From positions 1-64,000 of the forward strand of contig JAFPWG010000014.1 in assembly GCA_017395045.1 (NCBI GenBank): a stretch of 64,000 nucleotides of DNA. The letters are read 5' to 3'. Source of the stretch: Bacteroidales bacterium. GTDB taxonomy: Bacteria > Bacteroidota > Bacteroidia > Bacteroidales > UBA932. The notes under the pieces were generated by a model. The model was not told where the DNA came from. It saw only the letters and a list, made by a program, of their open reading frames with translations, and made no database searches. The stretch's first letter is position 1, and the number at the start of each line of letters is the position of its first letter. Positions 8,052 through 25,154 of the stretch are shown here, one piece after another. Made by a program: the position numbers and the translations under genes.

Positions 8052-11000
8052 ATGCCTGCATATAACAACAAGGAAAACAAGGTGAAGAGCAACTTCTCGA
8101 AGATCTCCATCGCGCTCGCTTCCCCGGAGGACATTACCGAAAGGTCCTGCGGTGAGGTCCTGAAGCCGGAAACGGTCAACTACAGGACCTACAAGCCCGA
8201 GCGTGACGGCCTGTTCTGCGAGAAGATCTTCGGTCCGACCAAGGATTACGAGTGCTACTGCGGCAAGTACAAGCGGATCCGCTACCGCGGAATCGTCTGC
8301 GACCGCTGCGGTGTGGAGGTGACCGAGAAGAAGGTCCGCCGCGAACGGATGGGTCATATCACCCTGACCGTTCCGGTGGCCCACATCTGGTACTTCAAGA
8401 GCGCGCCGAACAAGATCAGCGCCCTCCTCGGCGTCCCTTCCAAGAAGCTCGAGTCCGTGATCTATTACGAGAAGTACATCGTCATCAACCCGGGCATGAC
8501 CGATCTGCAGAAGTACGATCTGGTCTCCGAGGACGAGTACCTGACCGTGATGGACCGGTTCCCGGAGAACTACACCCTGCCTGACGGCGATCCGCAGAAG
8601 TTCGTCGCCAAGATGGGTGCCGAGGGTATCTACGACCTCCTCAAGGAGATCGACGTCGAGGCTTTGGGCAAGTCCCTGCGCCAGCAGATGCGCACCGAGA
8701 CTTCCCAGCAGCGGAAGACGGACATCCTCAAGCGCCTGTCCGTGGTGAAGTGGTTCCAGGAGTCCAAGGACGTGAACCGTCCGGAGTGGATGATCATGAA
8801 GGTCCTGCCGGTCACTCCGCCGGACCTCCGCCCGCTCGTCCCGCTGGACGGCGGCCGTTTCGCCACCTCCGACCTGAACGACCTGTACCGCCGCGTCATC
8901 ATCCGCAACAACCGTCTGAAGAAGCTCATCGAGATCAAGGCTCCGGAAGTGATCCTGCGCAACGAGAAGCGCATGCTCCAGGAAGCCGTCGATTCCCTCT
9001 TCGACAACTCCAAGAAGTCTTCCGCCGTGAAGAGCGAGTCCAACCGGGCGCTGAAGTCCCTGTCCGACTCCCTGAAGGGCAAGCAGGGCCGTTTCCGCCA
9101 GAACCTGCTCGGTAAGCGTGTCGACTATTCCGCCCGTTCGGTTATCGTCGTGGGTCCGGAACTCAACATGCACGAGTGCGGTCTGCCGAAATTCATGGCC
9201 GCCGAACTGTACAAGCCGTTCGTGATCCGCAAGCTTATCGAGCGCGGCATCGTGAAGACCGTCAAGAGTGCGAAGAAGATCGTCGACCGCCGCGATCCGG
9301 TGATCTGGGACATCCTCGAGAACGTGATGAAGGGCCATCCGGTGCTCCTGAACCGTGCTCCGACCCTGCACCGCCTCGGTATCCAGGCCTTCCAGCCGCG
9401 GATGATCGAAGGCAAGGCCATCCAGCTGCATCCGCTCGCCTGTACGGCGTTCAACGCCGACTTCGACGGTGACCAGATGGCCGTGCACCTCCCGCTCGGC
9501 AACGCCGCCATCATGGAGGCGCACCTGCTGATGCTGGGATCCCACAACATCCTGAACCCGGCCAACGGCTCCCCGATCACGGTACCGTCCCAGGACATGG
9601 TCCTCGGTCTGTACTACATCACCAAGGAGCGTCCCGGCGCGAAGGGTGCCGGCCTGAAGTTCTACGGGCCGGAAGAGGTGATCATTGCCTATGACGGCAA
9701 GGTCATCGACATGCATGCCCCCATCGAGGTCCGTCTGCCGAAAGACAAGCAGGACCTCTCCAAGGGCTATGAGATGGTGAAGACCACCGCCGGTCGTATC
9801 ATCGTGAACCAGTGCGTCCCGGACGAGGTCCCGTACGTGAACGAACTGCTGGGCAAGAAGGCCCTGCGTACCGTCATCACTACGGTCATCAAGTCCACCG
9901 GTGTCACCCGTACCGCCCAGTTCCTGGACGATATCAAGAACCTCGGTTACTACCAGGCCTTCCGGGCCGGTATCTCCTTCAACCTCGGCGATGTCCTCAT
10001 CCCGGGCGAGAAGGCGGGGCTCATTGAAAAGGGTTACAAGGACGTGGAGGCCATCAAGATGAACTACGCGATGGGTTTCATCACCAACAATGAGCGCTAC
10101 AACAAGGTCATCGACCTGTGGACCGCCATCGACAACAAGCTCACCGGCATCGTGAAGGACCAGATCTCCGCCGACCAGCAGGGATTCAACCCGGTGTACA
10201 TGATGCTGGATTCGGGCGCCCGTGGTTCCGTGCAGCAGATCAAGCAGCTGTGCGGCATGCGCGGCCTGATGGCGAAACCGCAGAAGTCCGGCGCCGCCGG
10301 CGCGGAGATCATCGAGAACCCGATCGTGTCCAACCTGAAGGAAGGCATGACGGTGCTCGAGTACTTCATCTCCACGCACGGTGCCCGTAAGGGTCTGGCC
10401 GATACCGCCCTGAAGACGGCGGATGCCGGTTACCTGACCCGCCGCCTGGTGGACGTCTCCCACGACGTCATCATCACCGAGGAGGACTGCGGCACGCTCC
10501 GCGGCCTGATCGCCACGGCCATCAAGAACAAGGACGAGGTCGTCGAGTCCCTCGGCGAGCGCATCCTGGGCCGTACCTCCGTGCACGACATCTTCAACCC
10601 GCTTACCGGAGAGCTGATCATCTCCGCCGGCGAGGAGATCCGTGAGGACGTCGCCGCCCTCATCGACACCCTCCCGATCGAGCAGGTCGAAATCCGCAGC
10701 GTGCTCACGTGCGAATCCCGCAAGGGCGTCTGCGCGAAGTGCTACGGCCGCAACCTGGCCACTTCCCGCATGGTCGAGAAGGGCGAGGTCGTGGGTGTCA
10801 TCGCCGCGCAGTCCATCGGTGAGCCGGGTACCCAGCTGACCCTGCGTACCTTCCACGTCGGTGGTACCGCCTCCGGTTCGGTGGCCGACAACACCATCGA
10901 GTCCAAGTACGAAGGCAAGCTTGCCTTCGAGGAGCTCCGCACCATCGAGAAGGTCAACGACGACGGCACCGTGAACAACATCGTGGTGAGCCGCATGGCC

Positions 11001-12302
11001 GAACTCCGCATCATGGACGAGCGCACCGGCATGACCTATTCCCAGTATGACATCCCTTACGGTTCCACGCTGTACTTCAAGGACGGCGACACCGTCAAGA
11101 AGGGAGACCTCATCTGCGAGTGGGATGCCTACAACGCCACCACCATCGTGGAGAGCGCCGGTAAGCTCGCCTTCGAGAACATGATCGAAGGCGTCACGTA
11201 CCGTGAAGAGAATGCCGACGAGTACTCCAACAACACCGACAAGGTCATCATCGAAGGCCGTGACAAGACCAAGAGCCCGGCCATCCACATCATCGACGAG
11301 TCCGGACGCTCCCTCCGCCAGTACAACCTGCCGGTGGGCGCCCACATCATGATGAACGACGGCGACCCGGTGAAGGTGGGTGACACGATCATCAAGATCC
11401 CGCGCGCCATCGGCAAGGCGAGCGACATCACGGGCGGTCTGCCGCGCGTGACCGAGCTCTTCGAGGCCCGCAACCCCTCCAACCCGGCCATCCTCTCCGA
11501 GATCAACGGCGAGGTCCTGATGGGCAAGGTGAAGCGGGGCAAGCGCGAGATTGTCGTGAAGAACCGTTCCGGCGTGGAGAAGCACTACGAGGTCCCGATG
11601 ACCAAGCAGATCCTGGTCCAGGAGAACGACTATGTCCGGGCCGGTACCCGTCTTTCCGACGGCGGTACCTCTCCGACCGACATCCTCGACATCCTCGGTC
11701 CGGTGAAGGCCCAGGAATACATCGTGAACGAGATCCAGGCCGTGTACCGTCTGCAGGGCGTGAAGATCAACGACAAGCACTTCGAGATCATCGTCCGCCA
11801 GATGATGCGCAAGGTCCAGATCAACGATCCGGGCGACACCGAGTACCTCCCGGAGGAACTCGTGGACAAGTGGGAGTTCATGGACGCCAACGACGCCATC
11901 TTCGGCAAGTCGTACGTCCTGGATCCGGGCGACAGCGTCCGTTATGAGGAAGGCGACATCATCGGCGCCCGCGAGCTCCGCAGCGAGAATGCCTCGCTCG
12001 AGCGCCAGGGCATGAAGATGATGGTCGTCCGCGACGCCAAGCCCGCGACGGCCTCCCAGGTCCTCCAGGGTATCACCCGCGCGGCCCTCAAGACCGGCAG
12101 CTTCATCTCCGCCGCCTCCTTCCAGGAGACCACGAAGGTGCTCAGCGAAGCCGCGATCCGGGCCCGTGTGGACCACCTCGAAGGCCTCAAGGAGAACGTC
12201 ATCTGCGGTCATCTGATTCCGGCCGGCACCGGTCTGTCGGACTACCAGGACATCGTCGTGGGGTCCAAGAACGACTATGTCGCCGCGATGAACGAACTGT
12301 AG
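8052..12302 (+). CDS. rpoC: DNA-directed RNA polymerase subunit beta'
   Basis: This is the beta' subunit, which carries the catalytic magnesium. The 1416-residue protein has the N-terminal zinc ribbon ([20 protein letters not shown], about residues 67-86), the catalytic [12 protein letters not shown] at about residue 470, the bridge-helix/trigger-loop region ([22 protein letters not shown]) and the second zinc site ([13 protein letters not shown]). The C-terminus ends with the conserved TGLSDYQDI-type tail. It is the last gene of the operon and is followed by a strong terminator. Confidence 0.99.
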
Positions 12303-12339
12303 CAGCCGTCCTTTCCCGGTTGAACGGGAATCCAAAACG

Positions 12340-12369
12340 AACCGGCCATTTCACTATGGCCGGTTTTTT
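12340..12369 (+). terminator. Intrinsic terminator after rpoC
   Basis: AACCGGCCAT (12340-12349) pairs perfectly with ATGGCCGGTT (12356-12365) around TTCACT, and a T-run continues to 12369. This ends the tuf/secE-rpoC unit. Confidence 0.9.
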
Positions 12370-12372
12370 GTA

Positions 12373-12380
12373 TATCTTTG
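12373..12380 (+). promoter_or_regulatory. Bacteroidota -7 element for the lipoprotein at 12399
   Basis: TATCTTTG matches the Bacteroidota -7 consensus TAnnTTTG and lies just after the rpoC terminator and 18 nt before the ATG at 12399. I see no good -33 TTTG at the expected spacing. Confidence 0.5.
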
Positions 12381-12398
12381 CAGAAAATCAGAAAAGCT

Positions 12399-13586
12399 AT
12401 GAAAGGAATCATCAGAACCCTCGCCCTGGTGGCGACAGCCGCCCTGGCGATGACCGGATGCTACAAGCACAATCCGATCGGTCGTAACGATGGCCCCAAC
12501 CACCACCAGGAGCCTGCCGAAGAGAAGCTGGTCGTGACGGAAAACTCCGACTGGTCCATCCGGTATGTCTCCCGCGAGGATTGGGTGAATGACGACGGCA
12601 GCGTGGAGGCGGTGGAGCACTTCAACCTGTCCTACAAGGGAACCGGCTACTATATCATCCGCATCATCCGTCCGGAAGACCTCAAGGCCGCCTATGGCGA
12701 ACAGCCCGACCTGGCCGATTTCTTCAAGTATGAGGCGGAGAGCCTGGTGTCCGACGCCAAAAACGACGGCGTGAACTTCTACGACTATACCGACGAGGTC
12801 TTTACCTCGAAGATTACGGACATCTATTTCAACCGGCTGCGCAGCGGCACCTGGATCGCCTTCCTCGTCGAACTGGACCGGAATGGAAAAGTGACCGGGT
12901 ACTTTGCCGAAGCGGACTTCACGATCCGGGAGGAAGAGGCGTCCGAGGCCTTCAAATACTGGCTGGGCGACTGGCGCGTTTCCAACGGCCTGGTCGGATA
13001 TGAACTTACCGTTTCCAGCCTGGACAACAACTTCATCTACCGTGTGGACGGTTGGGAATGCGGGCCGGCCGCCGGCTTCCAGATGGACAAGGAATACCTG
13101 GAGACGGAATTCTGGCCTGCGAACGGCTTCATGTATTTCACGTCCCAGTTCCTGGGCGCCTATGACGACGAGGACTTCGGCTACGGCACTGTGGATGAAC
13201 TCTTCATGGGGAACATCTTCGATTCCAAAGGCATTACGATCATCACGGATGAGGGAATCGACCTGGCCGTGGCGGTGCCTACCGAAACCGGTGCTGAACT
13301 GCAGCCGATGGAGGTGACGTTGGATACCGACAGTGGGAAGTACACGACGCAATTCCATTCGATGCAGTACTACATGTGGGCCCACTCCACCCAGGAATGG
13401 CATCCGTACAACCAGAGCATCGCCGAACTCCCGCTTACGATGACGCGCATTGCAGGCACCCGCGCCGAGGCCCGCGTCCTGGCGGAAGAGCGGACGGCGA
13501 CCAAGGCTTCCATCCATCGCAGCCAGCCGAAGGCCGGGAAGACGGGACGCAACAGCGTGGCGAAAAAGGCCGTCCGGATGAAATAA
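12399..13586 (+). CDS. Unrecognised lipoprotein
   Basis: I do not recognise the family. The ATG at 12399 is chosen over a TTG at 12378 because it gives a clean lipoprotein signal (MKGIIRTLALVATAALAMTGC, lipobox AMTGC, mature Cys at residue 21) and lies after the -7 element. The 395-residue protein is rich in aromatic and acidic residues. A middle repeat-like stretch (FKYWLGDWRVSNGLVGYELTV, about residue 188 on) resembles the lipocalin-like domains common in Bacteroidales lipoproteins. The C-terminus is a basic tail (TKASIHRSQPKAGKTGRNSV). The residues after the Cys are not an acidic surface-export signal, so a periplasm-facing location is more likely. It is probably a single-gene unit, closed by a terminator just before cysS. 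Confidence 0.8.
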   Translation: MKGIIRTLALVATAALAMTGCYKHNPIGRNDGPNHHQEPAEEKLVVTENSDWSIRYVSREDWVNDDGSVEAVEHFNLSYKGTGYYIIRIIRPEDLKAAYGEQPDLADFFKYEAESLVSDAKNDGVNFYDYTDEVFTSKITDIYFNRLRSGTWIAFLVELDRNGKVTGYFAEADFTIREEEASEAFKYWLGDWRVSNGLVGYELTVSSLDNNFIYRVDGWECGPAAGFQMDKEYLETEFWPANGFMYFTSQFLGAYDDEDFGYGTVDELFMGNIFDSKGITIITDEGIDLAVAVPTETGAELQPMEVTLDTDSGKYTTQFHSMQYYMWAHSTQEWHPYNQSIAELPLTMTRIAGTRAEARVLAEERTATKASIHRSQPKAGKTGRNSVAKKAVRMK

Positions 13587-13598
13587 AATTCGTATATT

Positions 13599-13628
13599 AG
13601 CAGTCTGGATTTTCAGACTGCTTTTTTT
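13599..13628 (+). terminator. Terminator abutting the cysS start codon
   Basis: AGCAGTCTG (13599-13607) pairs with CAGACTGCT (13614-13622) around GATTTT, and T-run 13622-13628 runs directly into the cysS ATG at 13629. It ends the upstream lipoprotein message. A near-match to the -7 element (TATATTAG, 13593-13600) overlaps its left edge. Confidence 0.85.
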
Positions 13629-15143
13629 ATGCGAAATCTCTATCTGACCAATACCCTGACGCGCCGCAAGGAGCTTTTCACGCCCATCCATCCGGGCCAC
13701 GTGGGAATGTATGTTTGCGGTCCGACCGTCTATGGGGACGCACATCTGGGTCACGCCCGTCCGGGGGTGACCTATGACGTACTTTTCCGCCTCCTGAAGC
13801 ACCTGGGCTACAAGGTCCGCTACGTGCGGAACATCACCGACGTGGGCCATCTGGAGCACGATGCCGACGAAGGGGAGGACAAGATCGCGAAGAAGGCGAA
13901 ACTGGAGGACCTGGAGCCCATGGAGGTGGTACAGACCTATACGGAGCGTTACCACGAGGCCATGCGTCTGCTGAACGTGGAATCCCCGTCCATCGAACCG
14001 CGCGCCTCCGGTCATATCATCGAGCAGATCGAGACCGTGAAGATGATCCTGAAAGCGGGCTATGCCTACGAATCCAACGGATCCGTCTATTTCGACGTGG
14101 AGAAATACAACCGGGACTTCCATTACGGCGTCCTGTCCGGCCGTTCGCTGGAGGCCACCCTGGAGGGTACCCGTTCCCTGGACGGGCAGACCGACAAGCG
14201 CGCCCCCTACGACTTCGCCATCTGGAAGAAGGCCGAGCCGGAACACATCATGCGCTGGCCGTCTCCGTGGGGCGAGGGCTTCCCGGGCTGGCACCTGGAA
14301 TGCTCCGTGATGGGGGAGAAGTACCTGGGGAAGGAGTTCGACATCCACGGCGGCGGCATGGACCTGATGTTCCCGCACCACGAATGCGAAATCGCTCAGA
14401 ACCAGGCGTCCCGCGGTACCCAGGGCGTACATTACTGGGTCCACAACAACATGATCACCATCAACGGGCAGAAGATGGGCAAGTCCCTCGGCAACTTCAT
14501 CACCCTGCCGGAGCTCTTCAGCGGCAAACATCCCAAACTGGACCGCGCCTACAGCCCGATGACCATCCGTTTCTTCATCCTTCAGGCTCATTACCGCAGC
14601 ACCCTGGATTTCTCCAACGAGGCGCTCCAGGCCGCGGAAAAGGGTTACAAGCGCCTGATGCAGGCGGGACGGGAACTGGGCGCGGGTTGTCCGGTGGAAG
14701 TGACGGCGGCGGAGGGATTTCCGCCGGCTGAAAAAAGTGTCGATGCCGGCGGAAATCCCTCCGCCGCCGTTGCGGCACTCATCGAGAACGTCTATGAAGC
14801 GCTCTGCGACGACCTGAATACGCCCATCGCCATCGCACACCTGTTCGAGGCCGTGAAGATGGTGAATGCCGGCAATCTTCCCGAAGCCGACAAGGCTGCG
14901 CTGAAAAAGCTCTTCGAGGATGTCGTGTACGGTGTCCTGGGCCTCCGCGACGAGGAGGCCGCCGGTTCCTCCGGAAAGGCCGAGAAGGCGCTGGAGGGCG
15001 TGATGGACATCGTCCTGGAAGACCGCCGCAAGGCCCGTGCGGAGAAAAACTGGGCCGAATCCGACCGCATCCGCGACCTTCTCGCGTCCTTCGGCATCAC
15101 CGTCAAGGACACGAAGGAGGGCGCCACCTGGACCCTGGAATAG
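13629..15143 (+). CDS. cysS: Cysteinyl-tRNA synthetase with an in-frame palindromic insert
   Basis: CysS charges tRNA-Cys with cysteine. The 504-residue protein has the class I motif HIGH as HLGH ([10 protein letters not shown], about residues 39-48) and KMSKS as KMGKSLGN (about residues 283-290). Zinc ligands include the Cys in [10 protein letters not shown] and those in HLECSVMG and HHECEIAQ. The start is secure because [23 protein letters not shown] matches the family N-terminus, even though a terminator T-run touches the ATG. Codons 358-382, between the catalytic core and the DALR-type helical domain, are a palindromic DNA insert (14700-14773) encoding [20 protein letters not shown]. The exonuclease gene starts 1 nt after the stop. 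Confidence 0.97.
14700..14773 (+). repeat. In-frame palindromic element, copy 1 (in cysS)
   Basis: A 29-bp stem (14700-14728 with 14745-14773) encloses a 16-nt loop, TGAAAAAAGTGTCGAT (14729-14744). The inner 26 bp are perfect, the next two pairs are G-U wobbles in the mRNA, and the outermost is G-C. The element is in frame and codes for a stretch containing [12 protein letters not shown] second copy with a different stem but nearly the same loop is at 21917-21988. Confidence 0.85.
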
Positions 15144-15144
15144 C

Positions 15145-15888
15145 ATGAAATTCATCTCGTGGAACGTGAACGGCCTCCGGGCCGTGGCAGGGAAGGGATT
15201 CGCGGACATATTCGCGGACCTGGACGCCGACTTTTTCTGCCTGCAGGAAACCAAGCTGCAGGAGGGTCAGATCGACCTGGAATTCCTGGGCTACCGTTCC
15301 TATTGGAACTATGCCGACAAGAAGGGCTATTCCGGCACCGCCATCTATGCGAAGCACGATCCGCTGTCCGTCCGTTACGGCATCGGTATCGACGAGCACG
15401 ACCACGAAGGGCGGGTGATTACCCTGGAGTATGCCGATTTCTTCCTGGTGTGCGCCTACGTGCCCAACTCCCAGGACGGCCTCCGTCGCCTGGACTACCG
15501 GATGCGTTGGGAGGATGCGATGCGCGCCTATCTGGCCGGCCTTCCGAAGCCGGTCGTGTTCTGCGGTGACCTCAACGTCGCGCACGAGGAGATCGACATC
15601 AAGAATCCCGCATCCAACCGCCGCAATGCCGGTTTTACCGACGAGGAGCGTGCGAAGTTCAGCGCCCTCCTGGACGCCGGATTCGTGGATTCCTGGCGTT
15701 TCCAGCATCCCGGTGAAGTGAAGTATTCCTGGTGGTCCTACCGCTTCAATGCGCGCGCGAACAACGCGGGGTGGCGGATTGACTATTTCGTCGTTTCCGA
15801 GGCCCTCCGCGACCGGATCGTTTCCACGGAAATCCATAATGAAATCACCGGTTCCGACCACTGTCCGGTGGAATTGGTGCTGGAGTAG
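15145..15888 (+). CDS. xth: Exodeoxyribonuclease III
   Basis: This is an AP endonuclease/3' exonuclease of the ExoIII-APE1 family, acting in base-excision repair. The ATG at 15145 gives the canonical N-terminus MKFISWNVNGLRA; an upstream in-frame extension inside cysS is ignored. The 247-residue protein shows metal ligands N (WNVNG) and E (FCLQETKL, about residue 35), the catalytic Y (CAYVPNS), D and N (GDLNVAHEEID), and the final SDH (GSDHCPVEL). Length is normal. It starts 1 nt after cysS, so the two are cotranscribed, and it ends at a bidirectional terminator shared with ssb. Confidence 0.96.
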   Translation: MKFISWNVNGLRAVAGKGFADIFADLDADFFCLQETKLQEGQIDLEFLGYRSYWNYADKKGYSGTAIYAKHDPLSVRYGIGIDEHDHEGRVITLEYADFFLVCAYVPNSQDGLRRLDYRMRWEDAMRAYLAGLPKPVVFCGDLNVAHEEIDIKNPASNRRNAGFTDEERAKFSALLDAGFVDSWRFQHPGEVKYSWWSYRFNARANNAGWRIDYFVVSEALRDRIVSTEIHNEITGSDHCPVELVLE

Positions 15889-15912
15889 GGAGAGCGGTTT
15901 TTCAGATGATGA

Positions 15913-15948
15913 AAAACGGCCCGCCAGGTTTTCCCGGCGGGCCGTTTT
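15913..15948. terminator. Bidirectional terminator between xth and ssb
   Basis: AAAACGGCCCGCC (15913-15925) pairs perfectly with GGCGGGCCGTTTT (15936-15948) around a 10-nt loop. A and T runs flank the stem, so it can serve the converging exonuclease (+) and ssb (-) transcripts. Confidence 0.9.
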
Positions 15949-15956
15949 CGGACCTG

Positions 15957-16478
15957 TCAGAACGGGAGGTCGTCTCCGCCTTCGTCGGCGGCAGGCGGCG
16001 GAACAGGTGCCTGGGGAGCGACGGGCTGGGGTGTGGCCGGCTGGGCCGGAGGTGCGGACTGGTAGCCGGGACCGGCGTAGCCGCCCTGGGCGGGCTGGCC
16101 GCCATAGTTGCCCTGGCCCTGCTGGGGGCCGTCGGGGCGCTTGCCCAGAAGCTGGATGTTGTCGGCCTGGACTTCGGTGGTGGAGCGTTTGGCTCCGGCC
16201 TGGTCGGTCCACTGGCGGGTGCGGAGGCGGCCTTCGATGAAGATCTGGCTGCCCTTGTGGACGAACTTCTCCACCAGGTCGGCGGAGTTGCGCCAGGCGA
16301 CGATGTTGTGCCATTCCGTGTTCTCGCGGGTTTCGCCGTTGCGGTCGCGGTAGCGCTCCGTGGTGGCCAGGCGGAAGGAGGCCACCTTGGCATTGCCCTG
16401 GGGGCCTTGGGAATCAAGGTAACGGATCTCGGGGTCGTTTCCAACGTTACCGATCAAGAGTACTTTGTTGAGTGCCAT
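15957..16478 (-). CDS. ssb: Single-stranded DNA-binding protein
   Basis: SSB coats single-stranded DNA in replication and repair and recruits partner proteins through its C-terminal tip. The start at 16478 gives MALNKVLLIGNVGNDPEIRY, the usual N-terminus; an upstream GTG-type extension of 8 codons is rejected. The OB fold covers residues 1-105 (TEWHNIVAWRNSADLVEKF and KGSQIFIEGRLRTRQW). A Gly-Gln-Pro-rich linker (about residues 115-162) leads to the acidic tip EGGDDLPF, the partner-binding motif. It lies 25 nt downstream of aroE on the same strand. Confidence 0.97.
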   Translation of the reverse strand: MALNKVLLIGNVGNDPEIRYLDSQGPQGNAKVASFRLATTERYRDRNGETRENTEWHNIVAWRNSADLVEKFVHKGSQIFIEGRLRTRQWTDQAGAKRSTTEVQADNIQLLGKRPDGPQQGQGNYGGQPAQGGYAGPGYQSAPPAQPATPQPVAPQAPVPPPAADEGGDDLPF

Positions 16479-16503
16479 AATGCGATATCTATTTGTGTGC
16501 AAG

Positions 16504-17226
16504 TTAGCAAAAAATCCGGCTCATTGCATCGGCGTCCGGCTGTTCTCCCGTAAAAATGGAATAACCGGCGACGGCCTGGTGCAGCAGCCAGCGCTGGCCG
16601 GGGACATAGACTTTCCCGCAGCCCTCCAGGCAGGGGGTACGGTAGTTCGCTTCCAGGACTACGGCGTCCGGAAAATCGGGAATCCCGTCCATCGGCCCGG
16701 GCACGGTATAGGCGACCAGGTCGGGGGAGAGGCCGGCGATACCGGAAAGCGGCGTCCATCCGCAGCCGAGTTCGTCGGCCAGGGAAACGGCCTTTGAGGC
16801 GGTCCGGTTCGCGAGCGTCACGTGGCAGCCCAGGCGCAGGGCGGCCACGGCCGCGGCCCGTCCGGCCCCGCCGCATCCCACGACCAGCGCCTCGTGGACC
16901 GGCAGCCCGGTCTCCAGGATCGACAGCATGACGCCGTCTACGTCGGTGTTGTAGCCGGCGATGCCGTCCGGCGTTTTCACGGCCAGGTTCACGGCCCCGC
17001 ACAGGCGTGCGCTTTCGGAAAGCCGGTCCACGGCCCGGAAAGCGTCCTGCTTGAAGGGTGCGGTGATGTTGATGCCGTCGTATCCGTCCAGGAAACGCTG
17101 CCAGGATGCGTCGAAAGACGCGCCTTCCAGGAGGTCGTAGGCATACCGGCCGCCATAAGCGGCGGCAAACAGCCGGGGGCTCAGCGAACCCGCGACCGGA
17201 TTTCCGATCAAACCGAAGCGTTTCAT
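16504..17226 (-). CDS. aroE: Shikimate dehydrogenase
   Basis: AroE reduces 3-dehydroshikimate to shikimate with NADPH in aromatic amino-acid synthesis. The start at 17226 (MKRFGLIGNPVAGSLSPRLF) is set by the shikimate-binding SLSP motif. NITAPFKQDA (about residue 53) carries the catalytic Lys, NTDVDG carries the catalytic Asp, and VGCGGAGRAAAVAAL (about residues 117-131) is the nucleotide-binding glycine loop. NRTASKA follows as the NADPH-phosphate loop. At 240 residues it is slightly short but complete. Its ATG overlaps the upstream membrane-protein gene by 4 nt (ATGA), implying translational coupling. Confidence 0.95.
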   Translation of the reverse strand: MKRFGLIGNPVAGSLSPRLFAAAYGGRYAYDLLEGASFDASWQRFLDGYDGINITAPFKQDAFRAVDRLSESARLCGAVNLAVKTPDGIAGYNTDVDGVMLSILETGLPVHEALVVGCGGAGRAAAVAALRLGCHVTLANRTASKAVSLADELGCGWTPLSGIAGLSPDLVAYTVPGPMDGIPDFPDAVVLEANYRTPCLEGCGKVYVPGQRWLLHQAVAGYSIFTGEQPDADAMSRIFC

Positions 17227-18269
17227 CGGCGGAAGAAGGTTTCGTGGATGTAGGAGGTGCCTCCGCAGAGGATGCTGGTGACGACCTGCGACTCGTGCGA
17301 AAGGGTGGCGAAGATCATTCCCATCTCGAAGGGAATGCCGTACAGGCTGGCCAGGGCACCGGCGACGACCGTATGGAAGGCGCCGAAACCGCCCGGCACA
17401 GGGACGAGGGAACTCAGGGCGCCGGCAAACATCAGGAAGAGGGCGTCGGACATCCCGAGACCGTCGATCTTGGCAAGGGCTCCGGCCAGGTCCGGACTCA
17501 GGCCGGAAGGGTCGATTCCCTGGAGCGACCACATGATGCAGGCGCTCATCAGCCAGTAACAGCCCCAGATGAGGGCGGTATAGAGGATGAACATCCATCC
17601 GTGCTTCATGTGCAGGCAGGAGGATAGTCCGTCCGCCATCCCCTGGAAGACCTTCCAGACCCGGCCCCAGATGCGTCCGCGGTCCCGCAGCTTCCAGCAG
17701 AGGAAGACGAATCCGCCGGCCAGCAGGGCGGCCAGGACGAGGACCCACCACAGACGGGCCTTGACGGCCACGCCCGCGAAGATGTTCTCCGTGAAGAAGG
17801 TCCCGAAACGGTCCCAGAGCACGGCCAGGAGCAGGAACAGGATCACCACGATGGAAATCAGGTCCCAGATCCGGTCGATGACGACGGTCCCGATGACCTT
17901 GTCCAGCGAAGCGAGCCTGCGGCCTTCGCCATCCCGGGCGGAATGCTTGGTCACAAACCCGCACCGGGCCACCTCTCCTACGCGGGGAAGCACGAGGTTC
18001 ACGATCATGCAGATGGAATACGCGTTCCAGCAGGTGACGCGCGACGTGGAAGGATCCACGGGCAGGATCTGCATCCGCCAGCGGAGGGACCGGAAGAAGA
18101 TGGCCAGGGCGCCCAGCAGGATGGAGAGGAGGACAAATCCCCACCGGCAGCTTTTCAGGGCCGTCCAGAAATCTTTCCAGTTTACACCGCGGAACGAGAA
18201 GTACAGCAGGGCGACGGCAACGCCGGTCCAGAGCAGGTACTTGAGGGTGTTCTTCAATTTCTTGTCCAT
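17223..18269 (-). CDS. YbhN/LPG-synthase-type membrane protein (flippase-like)
   Basis: This 348-residue integral membrane protein belongs to the lysylphosphatidylglycerol synthase transmembrane-region family (PF03706, UPF0104/YbhN). The arrangement is an N-terminal TM segment (YLLWTGVAVALLYFSF), then KDFWTALKSCRWGFVLLSILL, then the signature-like LRWRMQILP and NLVLPRVGEVARCGF (about residues 91-105). Several more helices follow, ending with SSLVPVPGGFGAFHTVVAGAL. It lacks the soluble aminoacyl-transferase domain, so it is not a full MprF. The substrate is unknown, and lipid transport is an inference from the family. It heads a leftward unit with aroE and possibly ssb. Confidence 0.85.
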   Translation of the reverse strand: MDKKLKNTLKYLLWTGVAVALLYFSFRGVNWKDFWTALKSCRWGFVLLSILLGALAIFFRSLRWRMQILPVDPSTSRVTCWNAYSICMIVNLVLPRVGEVARCGFVTKHSARDGEGRRLASLDKVIGTVVIDRIWDLISIVVILFLLLAVLWDRFGTFFTENIFAGVAVKARLWWVLVLAALLAGGFVFLCWKLRDRGRIWGRVWKVFQGMADGLSSCLHMKHGWMFILYTALIWGCYWLMSACIMWSLQGIDPSGLSPDLAGALAKIDGLGMSDALFLMFAGALSSLVPVPGGFGAFHTVVAGALASLYGIPFEMGMIFATLSHESQVVTSILCGGTSYIHETFFRR

Positions 18270-18277
18270 TGCTGTGA

Positions 18278-18285
18278 CAAAGTTA
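18278..18285 (-). promoter_or_regulatory. -7 element, leftward (membrane protein-aroE)
   Basis: On the minus strand TAACTTTG matches TAnnTTTG. It ends only 8 nt before the ATG at 18269, implying a nearly leaderless mRNA. It is divergent from the element at 18309-18316. Confidence 0.5.
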
Positions 18286-18308
18286 ATGGAAAATCCCCAA
18301 AAAGTGTA

Positions 18309-18316
18309 TAAATTTG
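18309..18316 (+). promoter_or_regulatory. -7 element, rightward (PfkB kinase)
   Basis: TAAATTTG matches TAnnTTTG, 26 nt before the ATG at 18343. The -33 element is not obvious. Confidence 0.5.
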
Positions 18317-18342
18317 TAGGTTATTGCTAAAACCGCCTTGAT

Positions 18343-19338
18343 ATGAAATCGATCCTGGGCATCGGAAACGCCCTCACCGACATCCTCGCCGTCCTGCCCG
18401 ACGACACGCTCCTGAGGAAGTACCATCTTCCGCTGGGAAGCATGCAGCACGTGGACATGGAGACGGGCGACCGCATCTGGGAGGCGCTGAAGGAGTACGG
18501 CGTGAAATATGTCCCGGGCGGATCGGCGGCGAACACGATCACCTGCACCGCCATCTTCGGGATGCCGTCGGGCTATATCGGCAAGATCGGCAACGACGAC
18601 CTGGGCAACCTCTTCAAGAGCACGATGGAGCAGTACGGCGTCTCCGCCCAGATGCTCTACGGCACCAAGTCCAGCGGCCGCTGCATGGTGTTCATCACCG
18701 GGGCCAATGCCGAGCGCACCTTCGCCGACTACATGGGTGCTACCCTGGAAATGGGCCCGGAGGACCTGAAGCCGGAATTCTTCGAAGGCTACGACTATTT
18801 CCATATCGAAGGCTACCTGGTCCAGAACCAGGAACTCATCTCCACCGCCGCCCGGATGGCGAAGGCCGCCGGTTGCCTCATTTCCATCGACATGGCCTCC
18901 TACAACGTGGTCGAGTCCAACGACGCCTTCTTCCACAACCTGGTGGAGAACTACGTGGACATCGTCTTCGCGAACGAGACCGAGGCGAAGGCCTTCACCA
19001 AGATGGAACCGCGTGACGCCCTGGACGAGATCGCCCGCCAATGCCGGATCGCCGTCGTGAAGGTGGGCAAGGAAGGCTCCATGGTCAAGTCCGGCGACGA
19101 ATACCACTTTATCAAGCCCTGGCCCGCCACGCCCGTGGATGCCACCGGGGCGGGGGACACCTACGCTGCCGGCTTCCTGTATGCGCATTCGCTGGGCATG
19201 CCCCTGCGCGTGTGTGGCGAAGTGGGCTCGATCATCGCCGCGAAGGTCGTGGAGGTGATCGGCACCAAGATCGACATCCCCCGCTGGCGCGACGCCAAGC
19301 AGGAAATCCGCGACCTGATCGCGGCCAACACCCGTTAA
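18343..19338 (+). CDS. PfkB-family sugar/nucleoside kinase
   Basis: This 331-residue kinase of the ribokinase superfamily resembles the adenosine kinase-like branch common in Bacteroidota. It starts with ILGIGNALTDILAVL and has the substrate-loop PGGSAANT (about residues 58-65). The PfkB signature 2 DATGAGDTYAAGFLYA (about residues 265-280) holds the catalytic Asp and anion-hole glycines. The substrate cannot be fixed from sequence; adenosine or a sugar is possible. It heads a tight rightward set (4 nt to the next gene, then a 4-nt overlap, then 12 nt). Confidence 0.9.
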   Translation: MKSILGIGNALTDILAVLPDDTLLRKYHLPLGSMQHVDMETGDRIWEALKEYGVKYVPGGSAANTITCTAIFGMPSGYIGKIGNDDLGNLFKSTMEQYGVSAQMLYGTKSSGRCMVFITGANAERTFADYMGATLEMGPEDLKPEFFEGYDYFHIEGYLVQNQELISTAARMAKAAGCLISIDMASYNVVESNDAFFHNLVENYVDIVFANETEAKAFTKMEPRDALDEIARQCRIAVVKVGKEGSMVKSGDEYHFIKPWPATPVDATGAGDTYAAGFLYAHSLGMPLRVCGEVGSIIAAKVVEVIGTKIDIPRWRDAKQEIRDLIAANTR

Positions 19339-19342
19339 GATT

Positions 19343-19876
19343 ATGCTGGAACCACTCAAGGATATGCTCAGGCGCCAGAGCCTGAAGAACAATGCCTCGC
19401 CGGAGCCCACGGGATTCGTCCCGCTGGAGAAGATCCGCTCCGCCGTGGCGTTCATCGACGTGGAGGACACGTCCTTCAACGAGTGCAAGAACGCCCTGAT
19501 GATCTTCTTCCGCGAACACAACATCAAGGGAGACATCTTCTTCTTCGACTTCCGGAAGCTCACGGAGGGCGAGCGCCTCATCACCAGTATCAAGACGACC
19601 GTCCTCAAGAAGGACCTCAACTGGTTCGGAAAGCCGTCCCACGAGAAGGTGGCCCTGATGCTGGACGGCGAGCCGGACCTGTTCATCTCGCTCCTCCCGT
19701 CCACGGACTATCCGCTCGAGTTCATGGCCAAGTGCTCCCGGGCACATTTCAAGATCGGCCGGGCCCAGTTGCCGGGCAATACGTTCGACCTGGTGATCAA
19801 GGACCCCGAGGACCGCAAGCTCAATGAGGCCGAGGTGTTCAAGGAACTGGTCAAATTCCTGGACAAGATCCGATGA
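19343..19876 (+). CDS. DUF6913 family protein
   Basis: This 177-residue cytoplasmic protein looks like the Bacteroidota-specific DUF6913 family: a central VAFIDVEDTSFNECKNALM strand-helix, the LKKDLNWFGKPS motif (about residues 88-99), DLFISLLPSTDYPLEFMAKC, and a closing AHFKIGRAQ. No catalytic motif is visible and the function is unknown. It begins 4 nt after the PfkB kinase stop and overlaps the next gene by 4 nt, so the three are translated from one message. The family call is by remembered similarity. Confidence 0.75.
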   Translation: MLEPLKDMLRRQSLKNNASPEPTGFVPLEKIRSAVAFIDVEDTSFNECKNALMIFFREHNIKGDIFFFDFRKLTEGERLITSIKTTVLKKDLNWFGKPSHEKVALMLDGEPDLFISLLPSTDYPLEFMAKCSRAHFKIGRAQLPGNTFDLVIKDPEDRKLNEAEVFKELVKFLDKIR

Positions 19877-20349
19877 TCCTCCAATACCTCATCGTCTTCC
19901 TGATTTCGATGGTGCCGCTCGTGGAGCTGCGCCTCGCCATCCCGTATGCCGTGGGCATGGGCCTTCCCATCGTCCCGTCCATCATCGTCGCCGTCGTGGG
20001 CAACATGGTCCCGGTCCCCTTCATCTTCCTGTTCGCCCGCCGGATCCTGGAGTGGGGGAAGGACAAGAAGTATATCGGCAAGTTCTTTACCTGGTGCCTG
20101 GAGAAGGGCGAGAAGGGCGGACGGAAACTGGAGGAAAAGGCCGGACGTGGCCTTTACGTGGCCCTGCTGCTGTTCGTGGGCATTCCGCTTCCGGGCACGG
20201 GCGCCTGGACCGGCACCCTCGCCGCCAGCATCCTGGACATGGACTTCAAGAAAAGCGTCCTGTTCGTGCTGCTCGGCGTGCTCCTGGCCGGAGCCATCAT
20301 GCTCCTGGGGTCGCTCGGCGTATTCGGAGCCATCAACTTCCTGAAATAA
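19873..20349 (+). CDS. Small multidrug-export-family membrane protein
   Basis: This 158-residue membrane protein fits the putative small multidrug export family (PF06695, COG2426). The hallmark VELRLAIPYAVGMGLP lies near residues 17-32, followed by the VGNMVPVPFIFLF helix and GIPLPGTGAWTG (about residues 103-114). There are four or five membrane segments and a charged cytoplasmic loop (EKGEKGGRKLEEKAGRG). The export role is from the family name only and is poorly supported experimentally. The ATG overlaps the DUF6913 stop (ATGA). Confidence 0.85.
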   Translation: MILQYLIVFLISMVPLVELRLAIPYAVGMGLPIVPSIIVAVVGNMVPVPFIFLFARRILEWGKDKKYIGKFFTWCLEKGEKGGRKLEEKAGRGLYVALLLFVGIPLPGTGAWTGTLAASILDMDFKKSVLFVLLGVLLAGAIMLLGSLGVFGAINFLK

Positions 20350-20361
20350 CCCAATCAAACT

Positions 20362-21336
20362 ATGACACTGAAACGATTCTTCTTCGGGAGCGCCGCACTG
20401 ATCCTGGCGACCACCTGCCTGACCGGCTGCCTGGCCGGAAAATTCATGAGTAATTACGCCCTCAAGCCGGCGCAGCACGGCGAGGCCGACATCGAGCGCA
20501 CCCGCGCCAAGGCCGACTCCCTCGCTCCCGGCGTGATGGCCTGGTATGACGACCTTCACGGAAAGGGCATTTTCAAGGACTTGTTCCGCACGGACGAAGA
20601 AGGCTACAACCTGCACGCCGTGTATGCTCCTGCCAAGGACCCGGCGAATGCGCAGGGTACCGCCGTCATCGTCCATGGCTACACCGACAACCACCTGGTC
20701 TTCATGTACCTCGTGCGGATGTACCGCGACGATTTCAACTATAACGTCATGGTTCCGGACCTCCAGTTCTTCGGCTATTCGGAAGGCAAGGCCGCCCAGA
20801 TGGGCTGGCTGGACCGCCTGGACGTGGAAGAGTGGGCGAAGATTGCCCACGACATTTTCCAGAACGACTTCACCGTCGTGCACGGCGTGTCCATGGGCGC
20901 CGCCACCGCGATGATGATGAGCGGCGACGACCTTCCGCCCTACATCCGCGCCTTTGTCGAGGACTGCGGCTACAGCTCCGCCTGGGACCAGTTCGCCCAC
21001 AACCTGAAGGATAGCTTCCATCTGCCGACGTTCCCGATCCTGAACAGCGCCAGCATCGTTACGCGCAGGCGCTACGGCTGGGGCTTCAAGGAGGCTTCCT
21101 CCGTGGATCAGCTTGCCAAGTGCGACCGCCCGATGCTCTTCATCCACGGCGATGCCGACGATTTCGTTCCGGTGGACCACGTTTACAAGAACTACGCGGC
21201 CAAGGTGCACGGATACAAGGAACTCTACATCGTCCCGGGCGCAGTCCACGCGAATTCCTACGCCAAAGACCCCGCCAATTACGCGTGGCGGGTGAAATAC
21301 TTCCTGCAGCGGGTGAAGGACGGCTCGGCGAAGTAA
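20362..21336 (+). CDS. Lipoprotein alpha/beta hydrolase
   Basis: This 324-residue alpha/beta hydrolase has an N-terminal lipoprotein signal (lipobox LTGC, mature Cys at residue 23). The fold is visible as TAVIVHGYTDN (oxyanion strand, about residue 95), the nucleophile elbow GVSMGAA (Ser about residue 174), GDADDFVP (likely acid Asp) and a late His (GAVHANSY). It resembles the cephalosporin-C-deacetylase/YtmA group in family terms, but the substrate is unknown. It is the last gene of the rightward set, and its stop faces the stop of the RNA methylase gene 5 nt away with no terminator between. Confidence 0.85.
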   Translation: MTLKRFFFGSAALILATTCLTGCLAGKFMSNYALKPAQHGEADIERTRAKADSLAPGVMAWYDDLHGKGIFKDLFRTDEEGYNLHAVYAPAKDPANAQGTAVIVHGYTDNHLVFMYLVRMYRDDFNYNVMVPDLQFFGYSEGKAAQMGWLDRLDVEEWAKIAHDIFQNDFTVVHGVSMGAATAMMMSGDDLPPYIRAFVEDCGYSSAWDQFAHNLKDSFHLPTFPILNSASIVTRRRYGWGFKEASSVDQLAKCDRPMLFIHGDADDFVPVDHVYKNYAAKVHGYKELYIVPGAVHANSYAKDPANYAWRVKYFLQRVKDGSAK

Positions 21337-21341
21337 TCGCC

Positions 21342-22178
21342 TCAGGAATTCCGCTGCCGGACGGCCTCGAAGAGGAGAATGGCCGTGGAGACGGAGACGT
21401 TCAGGCTGTCCAGATGGCCGAGCATGGGGATGCGGATGTGTGCATCCGCGGCGTCGCGCCAGATTTGAGTCAGGCCGGTGGATTCGGTACCCATCACGAG
21501 GGCCGTTCCGCCGGTCATTTCCGTATCATAGTACCAGGAGGAATCCTGGAGCTGGGCGGTCAGGATCCGGATGCCGCGGGCGTGGAGCCAGTCGATGGTC
21601 TCCGCCGATCCCGCGCATACGGTGGGCACCGTGAAAATCCCCCCGAGGCTGGCACGGATGAGGTTCGGGTTCCACAGGTCCGTGAGGGGATCGCAGACGA
21701 TGACCGCATCGGCCCGGGCGGCGTCGGCGCTGCGGAGCACTGCGCCCAGGTTCCCCGGCTTCTCCACGGATTCCAGGACGACGATGAGCGGATGCTCGGA
21801 CAATTCCAGGTCCTCCAGGCGGAGCGTCCGGGTTTCCACCTCGGCGATGATCCCTTCCGTACTTTCCCGATACGCTACCTTCCGGTACAGCGCTTCGGGA
21901 ATTTCGATTACATGGGTTCCGGAAGAGGTTTGCCTTCCGGAGACATCGACCCTCTTTTCAGCCTCCGGAAGGCAAACCCCCTCCGGAAGGGAACCGGCAA
22001 GCTCCGGGCAGTAGAAGACGGTCCGTACGCGGAAGCCTGCCTCCAGGCAGTGCTCCAGTTCGCGTCGGCCTTCCACGACGAAAAGACCCTGCCCCCGCCG
22101 CGCCTTGGATTTTTCCTGCAGCAGGAGCAGATTCCTGATTTTCGGATTCTGGGCCGATGTGACCGTTTCCGTCCGCAT
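21342..22178 (-). CDS. SpoU/TrmH-family RNA methyltransferase with in-frame palindromic insert
   Basis: This 278-residue SPOUT-type rRNA/tRNA 2'-O-methyltransferase has an N-terminal substrate-binding domain (FVVEGRRELEHCLEAG). The catalytic domain has motif 1 EKPGNLGAVLRSADA (about residues 138-152), motif 2 VMGTESTGL and motif 3 IPMLGHLDSLNVSVSTAILLFEA, which form the trefoil-knot SAM site. Residues 64-88 (LPEGVCLPEAEKRVDVSGRQ and beyond) are encoded by the palindromic element at 21917-21988 and lie in a loop of the N-terminal domain. Its ATG directly abuts the lysS stop. The RNA target is unknown. Confidence 0.92.
   Translation of the reverse strand: MRTETVTSAQNPKIRNLLLLQEKSKARRGQGLFVVEGRRELEHCLEAGFRVRTVFYCPELAGSLPEGVCLPEAEKRVDVSGRQTSSGTHVIEIPEALYRKVAYRESTEGIIAEVETRTLRLEDLELSEHPLIVVLESVEKPGNLGAVLRSADAARADAVIVCDPLTDLWNPNLIRASLGGIFTVPTVCAGSAETIDWLHARGIRILTAQLQDSSWYYDTEMTGGTALVMGTESTGLTQIWRDAADAHIRIPMLGHLDSLNVSVSTAILLFEAVRQRNS
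21917..21988 (-). repeat. In-frame palindromic element, copy 2 (in the SpoU methylase gene)
   Basis: On the coding (minus) strand a 28-bp stem (21988-21961 with 21944-21917) encloses the 16-nt loop TGAAAAGAGGGTCGAT. Twenty-five pairs are Watson-Crick. The other three are G-U pairs in the mRNA sense only (A-C on the other strand). The loop differs from copy 1 at two of 16 positions and is read in the same frame (A-E-K-R-V-D). Confidence 0.85.
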
Positions 22179-23696
22179 CTAGAATTTCTCGGGACGCATC
22201 GTCGGGAAGAAGAGGACGTCCTGGATGGTTTCGGCGCCCGTCATGAACATGGTCAGGCGGTCGATGCCGATTCCGATGCCCGAGGTGGGAGGCATGCCGT
22301 ACTCGAGGGCCCGGACGAAGTCGTAGTCGATGTACATCGCCTCGTCGTCGCCCTTGGACTTGAGGGCGGCCTGCTCCTCGAAGCGCTCCAGCTGGTCGAT
22401 CGGATCGTTCAGCTCGGAATAGGCATTGGCCAGTTCCTTGCCGGCGACGAACAGCTCGAACCGTTCGGTGAGGGTGTCGTCGTAGCGGCAGCGCTTGGTG
22501 AGCGGGGACATTTCCACGGGATAGTCGATGATGAAGGTGGGCTGGATGAGGTTCTTCTCGCAGTATTCGCCGAAGATGGCGTCGATGAGCTTGCCCACGC
22601 CCATCTCGGGGGAGACCTCCACGTTCAGTTTCTGGCAGGTCTCGCGGAGCTGCGCCTCGTCCATGCCCTTCACATCCACGCCGGCATATTCCTGGATGGC
22701 ATCCAGGATGCGGAGGCGGCGGAACGGCCCCTGGAAGGAGATCTCGTTCCCGCCGATGGTCTTCGTGAGGCCGCCGGTGGCTTCCGCCACCTGGGCGAGC
22801 ATTTTCTCGGTGAAGTCCATCATCCACAGGTAGTCCTTGTAGGCTACATACAGTTCCACGCAGGTGAATTCCGGGTTGTGGGTCTTGTCCATGCCCTCGT
22901 TGCGGAAATTCTTCGCGAACTCGTATACGCCCAGGTAGCCGCCCACGATGAGGCGCTTGAGGTACAGTTCATTGGCGATGCGCATGTACATGTCCACGTC
23001 CAGCGCATTGTGGTGCGTGATGAACGGGCGGGCGGTGGCGCCGCCCGGGATGGGCTGCAGGATGGGGGTTTCCACCTCCAGGCAGCCGGCGTCGTCGAAA
23101 TAGCGGCGCATCGTGGAGATGATCTTCGCGCGCTTGACGAAGGTCTCCTTCACCTGCGGGTTCACGACCAGGTCCACGTAGCGCTGCCGGTAGCGGAGTT
23201 CCGGATCGGCGAAACCGTCGTGGACGGTGCCGTCGGCGTCGGTCTTCACGATGGGGAGGACGCGGAGGGATTTCGAAAGGACCGTGAGCTCTTTCGCGTG
23301 GATGGACAGCTGGCCGGTCTGGGTGATGAAGGCGAAACCCTTGATGCCCACGATGTCACCGATGTCCAGCAGTTTCTTGAACACGGTATTGTACAGGGTC
23401 TTGTCCTCATCGGGGCAGATTTCGTCACGCTTCACATATACTTGTATGCGTCCCGTGTGGTCCTGCAATTCCATGAAAGAGGCGGCGCCCATGATGCGGC
23501 GGGACATGATGCGTCCTGCGATGCACACGTCGGCGAAATTGCCCTGCTCGGGAACGAAGCCTTCCGCGATTTCCAAGGTGGTCGTATTCACCGGATAGAG
23601 CGGTGCCGGATATGGATTGATGCCCAGTTCGCGGAGTTTTCCGAGGGATTCCCGGCGTCCGCGTTCCTGTTCGTTGAGGTCGATCGAAGGTGTCAT
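22179..23696 (-). CDS. lysS: Lysyl-tRNA synthetase (class II)
   Basis: LysS charges tRNA-Lys. The 505-residue protein has an N-terminal OB-fold anticodon domain ([21 protein letters not shown], about residues 58-78) and the class II core: motif 1 in [28 protein letters not shown], motif 2 in [19 protein letters not shown] and motif 3 in [14 protein letters not shown] near the C-terminus. [16 protein letters not shown] is typical of the family. The start at 23696 follows a 41-nt leader and a consensus -7 element. The methylase gene follows directly. Confidence 0.98.
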
Positions 23697-23737
23697 ATAA
23701 ATATATGTATATAAGGTTAATGGCGTCTTTGGTGATG

Positions 23738-23745
23738 CAAATGTA
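23738..23745 (-). promoter_or_regulatory. -7 element for lysS
   Basis: Minus-strand TACATTTG matches TAnnTTTG and ends 42 nt before the lysS ATG. The A/T-rich leader has no Shine-Dalgarno sequence. Confidence 0.55.
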
Positions 23746-23806
23746 CGAAAAACCTGCTAGAAATAGGTCTTTCTGCGATTTATTTGCTGAAAATTTTAAA
23801 AAAATG

Positions 23807-23838
23807 TTGGGAAAATCAGATAATTCTACTTACTTTTG
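23807..23838 (+). promoter_or_regulatory. Promoter of the OmpA-family gene and start of its long leader
   Basis: TTG (23807-23809) and TACTTTTG (23831-23838, matching TAnnTTTG) are 21 nt apart, close to the Bacteroidota -33/-7 spacing. Transcription would start near 23845, leaving a leader of about 108 nt. In it, AACACG (23900-23905) pairs with CGTGTT (23916-23921). The lysS promoter is divergent. Confidence 0.6.
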
Positions 23839-23952
23839 CAAACGTATATGAGAGTGTCCACACGGGGCGCAGTGTGTCCCGAACCCAAAATGGGCTGTGA
23901 ACACGTGCCCGTATGCGTGTTAAAGATGTAAATAGAACACAATTCTTTTTAT

Positions 23953-25125: not shown

Positions 25126-25154
25126 ACAATTAATCTTTTATACTTATTTAATTT

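Follow-up and report, generated by a model that had tools for sequence, protein, structure and literature searches.

The window analysed here, a stretch of 64,000 nucleotides from a Bacteroidales genome, holds within its cysteinyl-tRNA synthetase gene a long palindrome that is translated in frame with the rest of the protein. This raises the question of whether such a sequence is simply part of the protein or has been inserted as an element of its own and, if inserted, how its two arms are kept complementary. The host gene, cysS (13629..15143, plus strand), encodes 504 amino acids with Pfam matches to tRNA-synt_1e at residues 17-337 and to DALR_2 at 388-439, and the hairpin occupies codons 358-382, in frame, between the catalytic core and the DALR domain. 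It consists of a 29-nt 5′ arm (14700..14728), of which the part more than about 25 nt from the loop falls outside the typical element, a 16-nt loop (14729..14744, TGAAAAAAGTGTCGAT) and a 29-nt 3′ arm (14745..14773), all on the plus strand, and its 29-bp stem comprises 26 Watson-Crick pairs, two G-U pairs and one outer G-C pair. This geometry had been described in an initial annotation of the window and was borne out exactly, as was the sister palindrome placed in a SpoU-type methylase gene, with its similar loop and its shared orientation, frame and peptide. The latter gene encodes a SpoU-family RNA methyltransferase (21342..22178, minus strand, 278 amino acids; Pfam SpoU_methylase and MRM3-like_sub_bind), and its hairpin is formed on the same strand by a 28-nt 5′ arm (21961..21988), a 16-nt loop (21945..21960, TGAAAAGAGGGTCGAT) and a 28-nt 3′ arm (21917..21944). 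The two loops are identical at 14 of 16 positions, and P-x-A-E-K-x-V-D-x-x-G is encoded by both hairpins in identical orientation and frame.

Among the five inverted repeats found in the window (20 nt or longer, within 100 nt), the cysS hairpin is the sole pair that is 100% complementary, and the sister hairpin (21917-21988, minus strand) is the next best at 92%. The loop pattern, with up to two mismatches allowed, occurs in the window at these two hairpins only; in 100 shuffles of the window it occurred 0.08 times on average, with two matches in one shuffle. The predicted RNA folds have energies of -70.9 kcal/mol (z -9.4) for cysS and -57.1 kcal/mol (z -6.4) for the sister copy, which none of 200 shuffles equalled in either case. 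Comparison of positions 10000-26000 with Rfam yielded ten listed matches, eight of them at the two hairpins and all below the gathering score. An AlphaFold2 model of CysS, poor overall (13 sequences, mean pLDDT 48.8), gives residues 355-374 a pLDDT below 50 between two better-scored helices, and lends weak support to the view that the insertion region may be a flexible linker.

That these hairpins belong to an inserted family, present in some species of one Bacteroidales genus, is near certain. In thirty cysS orthologues, 82-100% identical to that of the window, conserved sequence flanks a hypervariable linker. This linker is occupied by the 16-nt-loop element, in one orientation or the other, by different palindromes, or by a short stretch of sequence (as in G003, G307, G061 and G216). 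The SpoU site has the same variability (34 genomes searched, 30 aligned), and orthologues with and without inserts are likewise encountered for fmt (33 of 35 genomes matched, 30 shown) and for folP (31 of 35 matched, 29 shown, one of these without an anchor), where the fixed-loop family was seen in G133 only. Examination of orthologues had been proposed in the initial annotation, and insert-free orthologues are indeed present at the same sites in cysS, SpoU, fmt and folP. At the fmt loci (L325-L354) the open frame is 812-871 codons long in most genomes, about twice the length of the Fmt domains, and seems to be joined to an upstream gene.

The genes that carry the element are diverse, and many copies lie in frame in housekeeping genes. 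A Pfam scan of 28 of 34 copies, for which the second-longest frame was used at L096, L101 and L117, gave a match at E ≤ 0.001 in 27 of the 28 element-bearing open reading frames, one of these matches (YfhO, L058) falling below its cut-off. Hosts include citrate lyase ligase/CitG, FolP (Pterin_bind), phosphomannose isomerase, Fmt, RsmF, Mur ligases, FtsK, UvrD, aspartokinase-homoserine dehydrogenase, TruB and a PurL-type enzyme, some of these names being drawn from what the Pfam families are known to denote. One phosphomannose isomerase-matching frame (L057:222-1508, in G089) contains four copies in both orientations. An ordinary conserved linker peptide, A-E/K-K-x-A-D-A, would be suggested by the similar peptides that sense copies encode. 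Of 76 homology-supported copies, 48 are sense (44 in frame 2, two each in frames 1 and 0), yet 28 are antisense (19 in frame 2, nine in frame 1), where the same loop encodes other peptides; 131 of 142 copies lie in an open frame of more than 100 codons, a loose criterion in GC-rich DNA, and 11 lie in none; and some orthologues at the cysS, SpoU, fmt and folP sites have no such peptide. Because copies are read on either strand and in several frames, what the loops have in common is a property of the nucleic acid and not a peptide motif. Peptide constraint as the sole cause is refuted by the frame and strand data, and an explanation by ordinary protein sequence is scarcely credible.

The phylogenetic distribution of the family is narrow and uneven. 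In the genome from which the window is taken (2.67 Mb in 42 contigs, 96% complete), 26 matches to the loop pattern were found with up to two mismatches, of which only two have the stem, and a covariance model applied at E ≤ 1 to 150 of 1323 first-look candidates recovered only the cysS and SpoU copies; a third copy, which the initial annotation had led one to expect, was not found there. These two detected copies lie 7.2 kb apart, and G069 has matches at the same two sites only. A relaxed loop pattern run over 151 genomes of the genus, together with fetched stretches, gave 13 distinct hairpins with different stems. The covariance model R1, with 22 free base pairs and the 16-nt loop, was built from 13 copies selected for having a stem, and pairing among its matches is thus enriched by construction. 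At E ≤ 0.01 the model, of the free-stem and fixed-loop kind that the initial annotation had recommended, detected the family in 18 of 200 genomes sampled from the larger genus, with 27 candidates scored per genome. When 150 candidates were scored at E ≤ 1e-4, copy numbers were 54 in G089, 40 in G148, 37 in G133, 16 in G077, 15 in G141, nine in G140 and seven in G028. A sample of the order (393 genomes from 206 genera, few of them of the same genus or family) gave matches at E ≤ 1e-4 in the window's own genome and none in the other 392, with 13 candidates scored in each, and a wide distribution is rejected at that depth.

The loop can also be searched for by itself, in a scan that, unlike R1, is independent of the stem in its query. 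The exact loop-only pattern matched 112 stretches of the genome_contigs collection, 80 of them with a title shown. A stem with 15 or more of the 22 pairs is present in 25 of the 80, every one of these being a Bacteroidales or Bacteroidia metagenome-assembled genome; the names of several refer to reticulum or rumen samples. Among the 41 non-Bacteroidota matches the best stem has 14 of 22 pairs; among the 39 with Bacteroidota titles 14 have fewer than 15, two of these being truncated by contig ends, and 11 of the 32 matches without a shown title have at least 15. Carriage by phages was considered and rejected: the exact pattern has five matches in viral contigs, none of them with the stem (5-10 of 22 Watson-Crick pairs).

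The anatomy of the element was derived from 121 of the 142 copies (those with an exact 60-nt core and enough flank), arranged in seven groups, six of single genomes and one mixed. Pairing between the arms stands at 79% at position 24 from the loop and at 37% at position 28. As the arms pair to about 25 nt and hardly beyond, the usual element is about 66 nt long (25 + 16 + 25), or 22 codons, the cysS and sister hairpins reaching up to 74 nt. The end of the stem is sharp, near positions 25-27, and the outer positions of the arms are more alike among copies than are the flanks. At positions 9-22, the arms of one copy pair with each other at 79-97%, as against 36-63% when arms are crossed between copies of the same group, and in the mixed-genome group the corresponding fractions are 0.91 and 0.36. 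The mid-stems are far less alike than the loops: within the six genomes, identity between copies is 0.80-0.96 for loops, 0.64-0.87 for the innermost 8 bp and 0.43-0.66 for the mid-stems. In G148, mid-stem identity is 0.47 over the 122 pairs of copies whose loops agree at 0.9 or more, and no such pair exceeds 0.8; in JAEEIJ loops are 0.96 identical and mid-stems 0.48. G089 departs from this: of the 114 pairs there that reach the same loop threshold, 41 have mid-stem identities above 0.8, which indicates that arms can travel with the loop.

Comparison of the same insertion site in different species shows how the stems change. Eleven same-site pairs, hand-picked from more closely related species and including three that share the same three genomes, provide 257 base pairs. 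No difference is seen in 196 of these and a one-sided change in 30; in the rest both partners differ, with Watson-Crick pairing maintained in 27 and lost in four. The 27 compensated changes are about nine times the 3.0 expected if the two arms change independently and one double change in three restores a pair. No such change occurs in three of the pairs (G069/G336, TruB and the HHH gene); in G069/G336, the closest pair compared (90.4% identity of neighbouring DNA), two base pairs differ, both one-sided. The loop may also be turned around, since at cysS G141 and G140 carry it in opposite orientations within corresponding stems, as do G148 and G218. Among 44 same-site pairs from the copy-rich genomes, loop identity is 0.714, as against 0.712 for other pairs of those genomes, and identity to mates in the same genome is 0.873; 12 of the 44 have opposite loop orientations, possibly through separate insertions. 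It follows that either each lineage acquired its insertions separately, at permissive sites, or the loops have evolved in concert within each genome. A filled and an empty site of the fixed-loop family in a pair of close species were not found in a comparison of 9.5-20 kb stretches around cysS from 18 other genomes (two stretches each for G069 and G336); of the 36 gaps of 30-200 nt that were kept, the assignable ones are CGTC-REP-like repeats, runs of N and plain indels.

The initial annotation had proposed that Bacteroidota possess an RPE-like palindromic element, inserted in frame, with a fixed loop and a covarying stem, and the findings support that description. Beyond it, we think it reasonably probable that the family is a non-autonomous, protein-coding palindromic element of this kind in which replication template switching preserves the complementarity of the arms. 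The element would spread in lineage-specific bursts through a mobilising activity acting on the folded core, and within genes it would be tolerated only where about 22 extra codons are harmless. After insertion, template switching between the arms during replication would rewrite one arm from the other, producing both paired changes and loop inversions, and the hairpin need not have any host function. Maintenance by template switching is inferred because paired changes and inverted spacers are its two published signatures: PMC8604942 reports both at inverted repeats in yeast coding genes, and PMC8794818 proposes that template switching creates and maintains the stems of RNA genes. In the present family, arm homogenisation and spacer inversion are seen as patterns between species and not as observed events. 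Covariation of the stem, as anticipated by the annotation, is real, yet taken alone it is no evidence of selection for structure, because template switching between arms accounts for it and for the loop inversions as well. A functional RNA or DNA hairpin, with a loop bound by a host or element factor and a stem preserved by compensatory point mutations, would agree with a loop that is largely fixed within a genome and with a covarying stem. It fits poorly with copies in unrelated genes, in both orientations and several frames, with some orthologues that have no element, and with same-site loops that are no more alike than matched pairs (the 0.714 and 0.712 above); nor does it predict inversion of the loop with the stem kept. 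Selection on such a hairpin is judged improbable.

Arm homogenisation alone does not explain the large arm differences among copies with nearly identical loops, and two readings remain for these copy-specific arms: rapid rewriting after insertion, or synthesis during insertion by inverted copying of the target. According to the second, only a loop core (16 nt and some inner stem) would be transmitted and the rest made by snap-back synthesis from adjacent target DNA. The mid-stem values of G148 and JAEEIJ favour it, as does the cysS site, where in several species the outer part of the 3′ arm overlaps the conserved host codons S-P-A-V, and the 5′ arm complements these codons as each species spells them; at L414, pairing extends 8 bp further, into codons common to L414 and L219. 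Against it stand the sharp stem end and the outer positions that are more alike than the flanks, for which reason the arm may be intrinsic and the S-P-A-V match coincidental, and also the common mid-stems in G089. Inverted duplication of the host flank, strong-looking at cysS, is thus the weaker for these two features of the stem, and arms copied from the target are a possibility to which we give less than even credence. The same tentative standing belongs to the broader idea of a mobile hairpin that inherits only its loop and a few inner base pairs, in at least two loop families (16 and 28 nt) of one genus; if true, the element writes its palindrome from host sequence. How copies are mobilised might be sought in a REP/RAYT system, in which palindromes are moved by a Y1 transposase, and Y1_Tnp (PF01797) matches do occur in 24 of 36 genomes, with CGTC-REP-like repeats present in the same genus. 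However, no match was found in G089 with its 54 copies, nor in G141 or G140 (draft genomes), and loop and size are unlike those of the GTAG/CGTC REPs described in PMC3733652. The PF01797 search of the 36 genomes gave no candidate for a mobilising protein, as its matches do not follow copy number; RAYT mobilisation was set aside on that ground, and a REP/RAYT origin appears distinctly unlikely.

Replication template switching acting on an RPE-like element, the reading preferred here, can be set beside known systems. The RPEs of Rickettsia are described in PMC2229807 and PMC10969869 as palindromic hairpins of several families, found in frame in unrelated conserved genes and in intergenic DNA, with sizes given as 105-146 or about 150 bp, and the title of a cited reference reports RPE-like repeats in Wolbachia. 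The Bacteroidales element is similar, as far as those descriptions go, in lying in frame in unrelated conserved protein genes and in being a long stem-loop with terminal inverted repeats; it differs in its size (66-74 bp as against 105-150 bp) and, compared by description only, in its common loop, its mostly copy-specific mid-stems and a host outside the Rickettsiales. MITEs share with it shortness, lack of autonomy, inverted repeats at the ends and a stem-loop; in contrast to these, the Bacteroidales element has inverted arms that mostly differ among copies, with the partial exception of G089 (41 of 114 pairs), and neither a target-site duplication nor a parent transposase was found in comparisons that included no close filled/empty pair and in a search for PF01797 only. 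GTAG/CGTC REPs, which PMC3733652 gives as 20-40 bp with mostly short loops and tagged ends, are also small bacterial palindromes that sometimes lie within genes, whereas the present element has a 16-nt loop, arms of about 25 bp and, by eye, no GTAG/CGTC tag. Arm homogenisation, spacer inversion and multi-base paired changes are common to it and to template switching in yeast coding genes and RNA genes; the inverted repeats in PMC8604942 and PMC8794818 are treated singly, whereas this is a dispersed family with one loop.

Protein-coding palindromic elements are already known, and what sets the present family apart is the combination of a common loop with mostly copy-specific arms, in a Bacteroidales host. 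RPE copies, by comparison, have a common stem sequence. In the literature searched, which comprised papers available free of subscription, neither such a family in this genus nor copy-specific arms with a fixed loop were encountered, and we know of no account of how protein-coding palindromic elements move. The family is large, is found in a phylum other than that of Rickettsia and Wolbachia and extends over many related species, forming a natural record of the spread of hairpins and the upkeep of their pairing. Its common loop and mostly copy-specific arms distinguish what is inherited from what changes with each site, and its paired changes and loop inversions would allow template switching to be measured in natural coding DNA. 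With strain genomes, the origin and spread of in-frame palindromes become directly testable.

Other repeats are encountered at the same sites. The cysS linkers L238-L242 and L249 (G149, G064, G217, G274, G232 and G086) carry the palindromes GTCATTCCGAGCGAAGCGAAGGAATC and GTCATTCCGGGCTTGACCCGGAATC or variants, and likewise the SpoU linkers L267 and L271; these look like CGTC-tagged REPs, a kind of repeat whose insertion was observed between related species. A second fixed-loop family, with a 28-nt nearly constant loop, GTCGCTTCGCGACCCTGTACGGGCAAAT, and free complementary stems, is present at L257, L260, L326, L244, L298, L268 and L245; of its 12 copies, seven have at least 20 of 24 arm pairs when the best of 49 registers is taken. 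In SpoU, L293 and L294 (G037 and G133) hold yet another type of insert, a hairpin with a 15-nt loop that encodes the peptide GIYFSGRCPKNQIPA, and in G133 it is followed by a VSPAMPSE tandem repeat. In folP, large inserts lie directly before the conserved S-I/V-D-T motif at L300, L311, L316, L317 and L319 (G382, G077, G202, G265 and G037), their outer arms matching in inverted orientation and their interiors being partly common.
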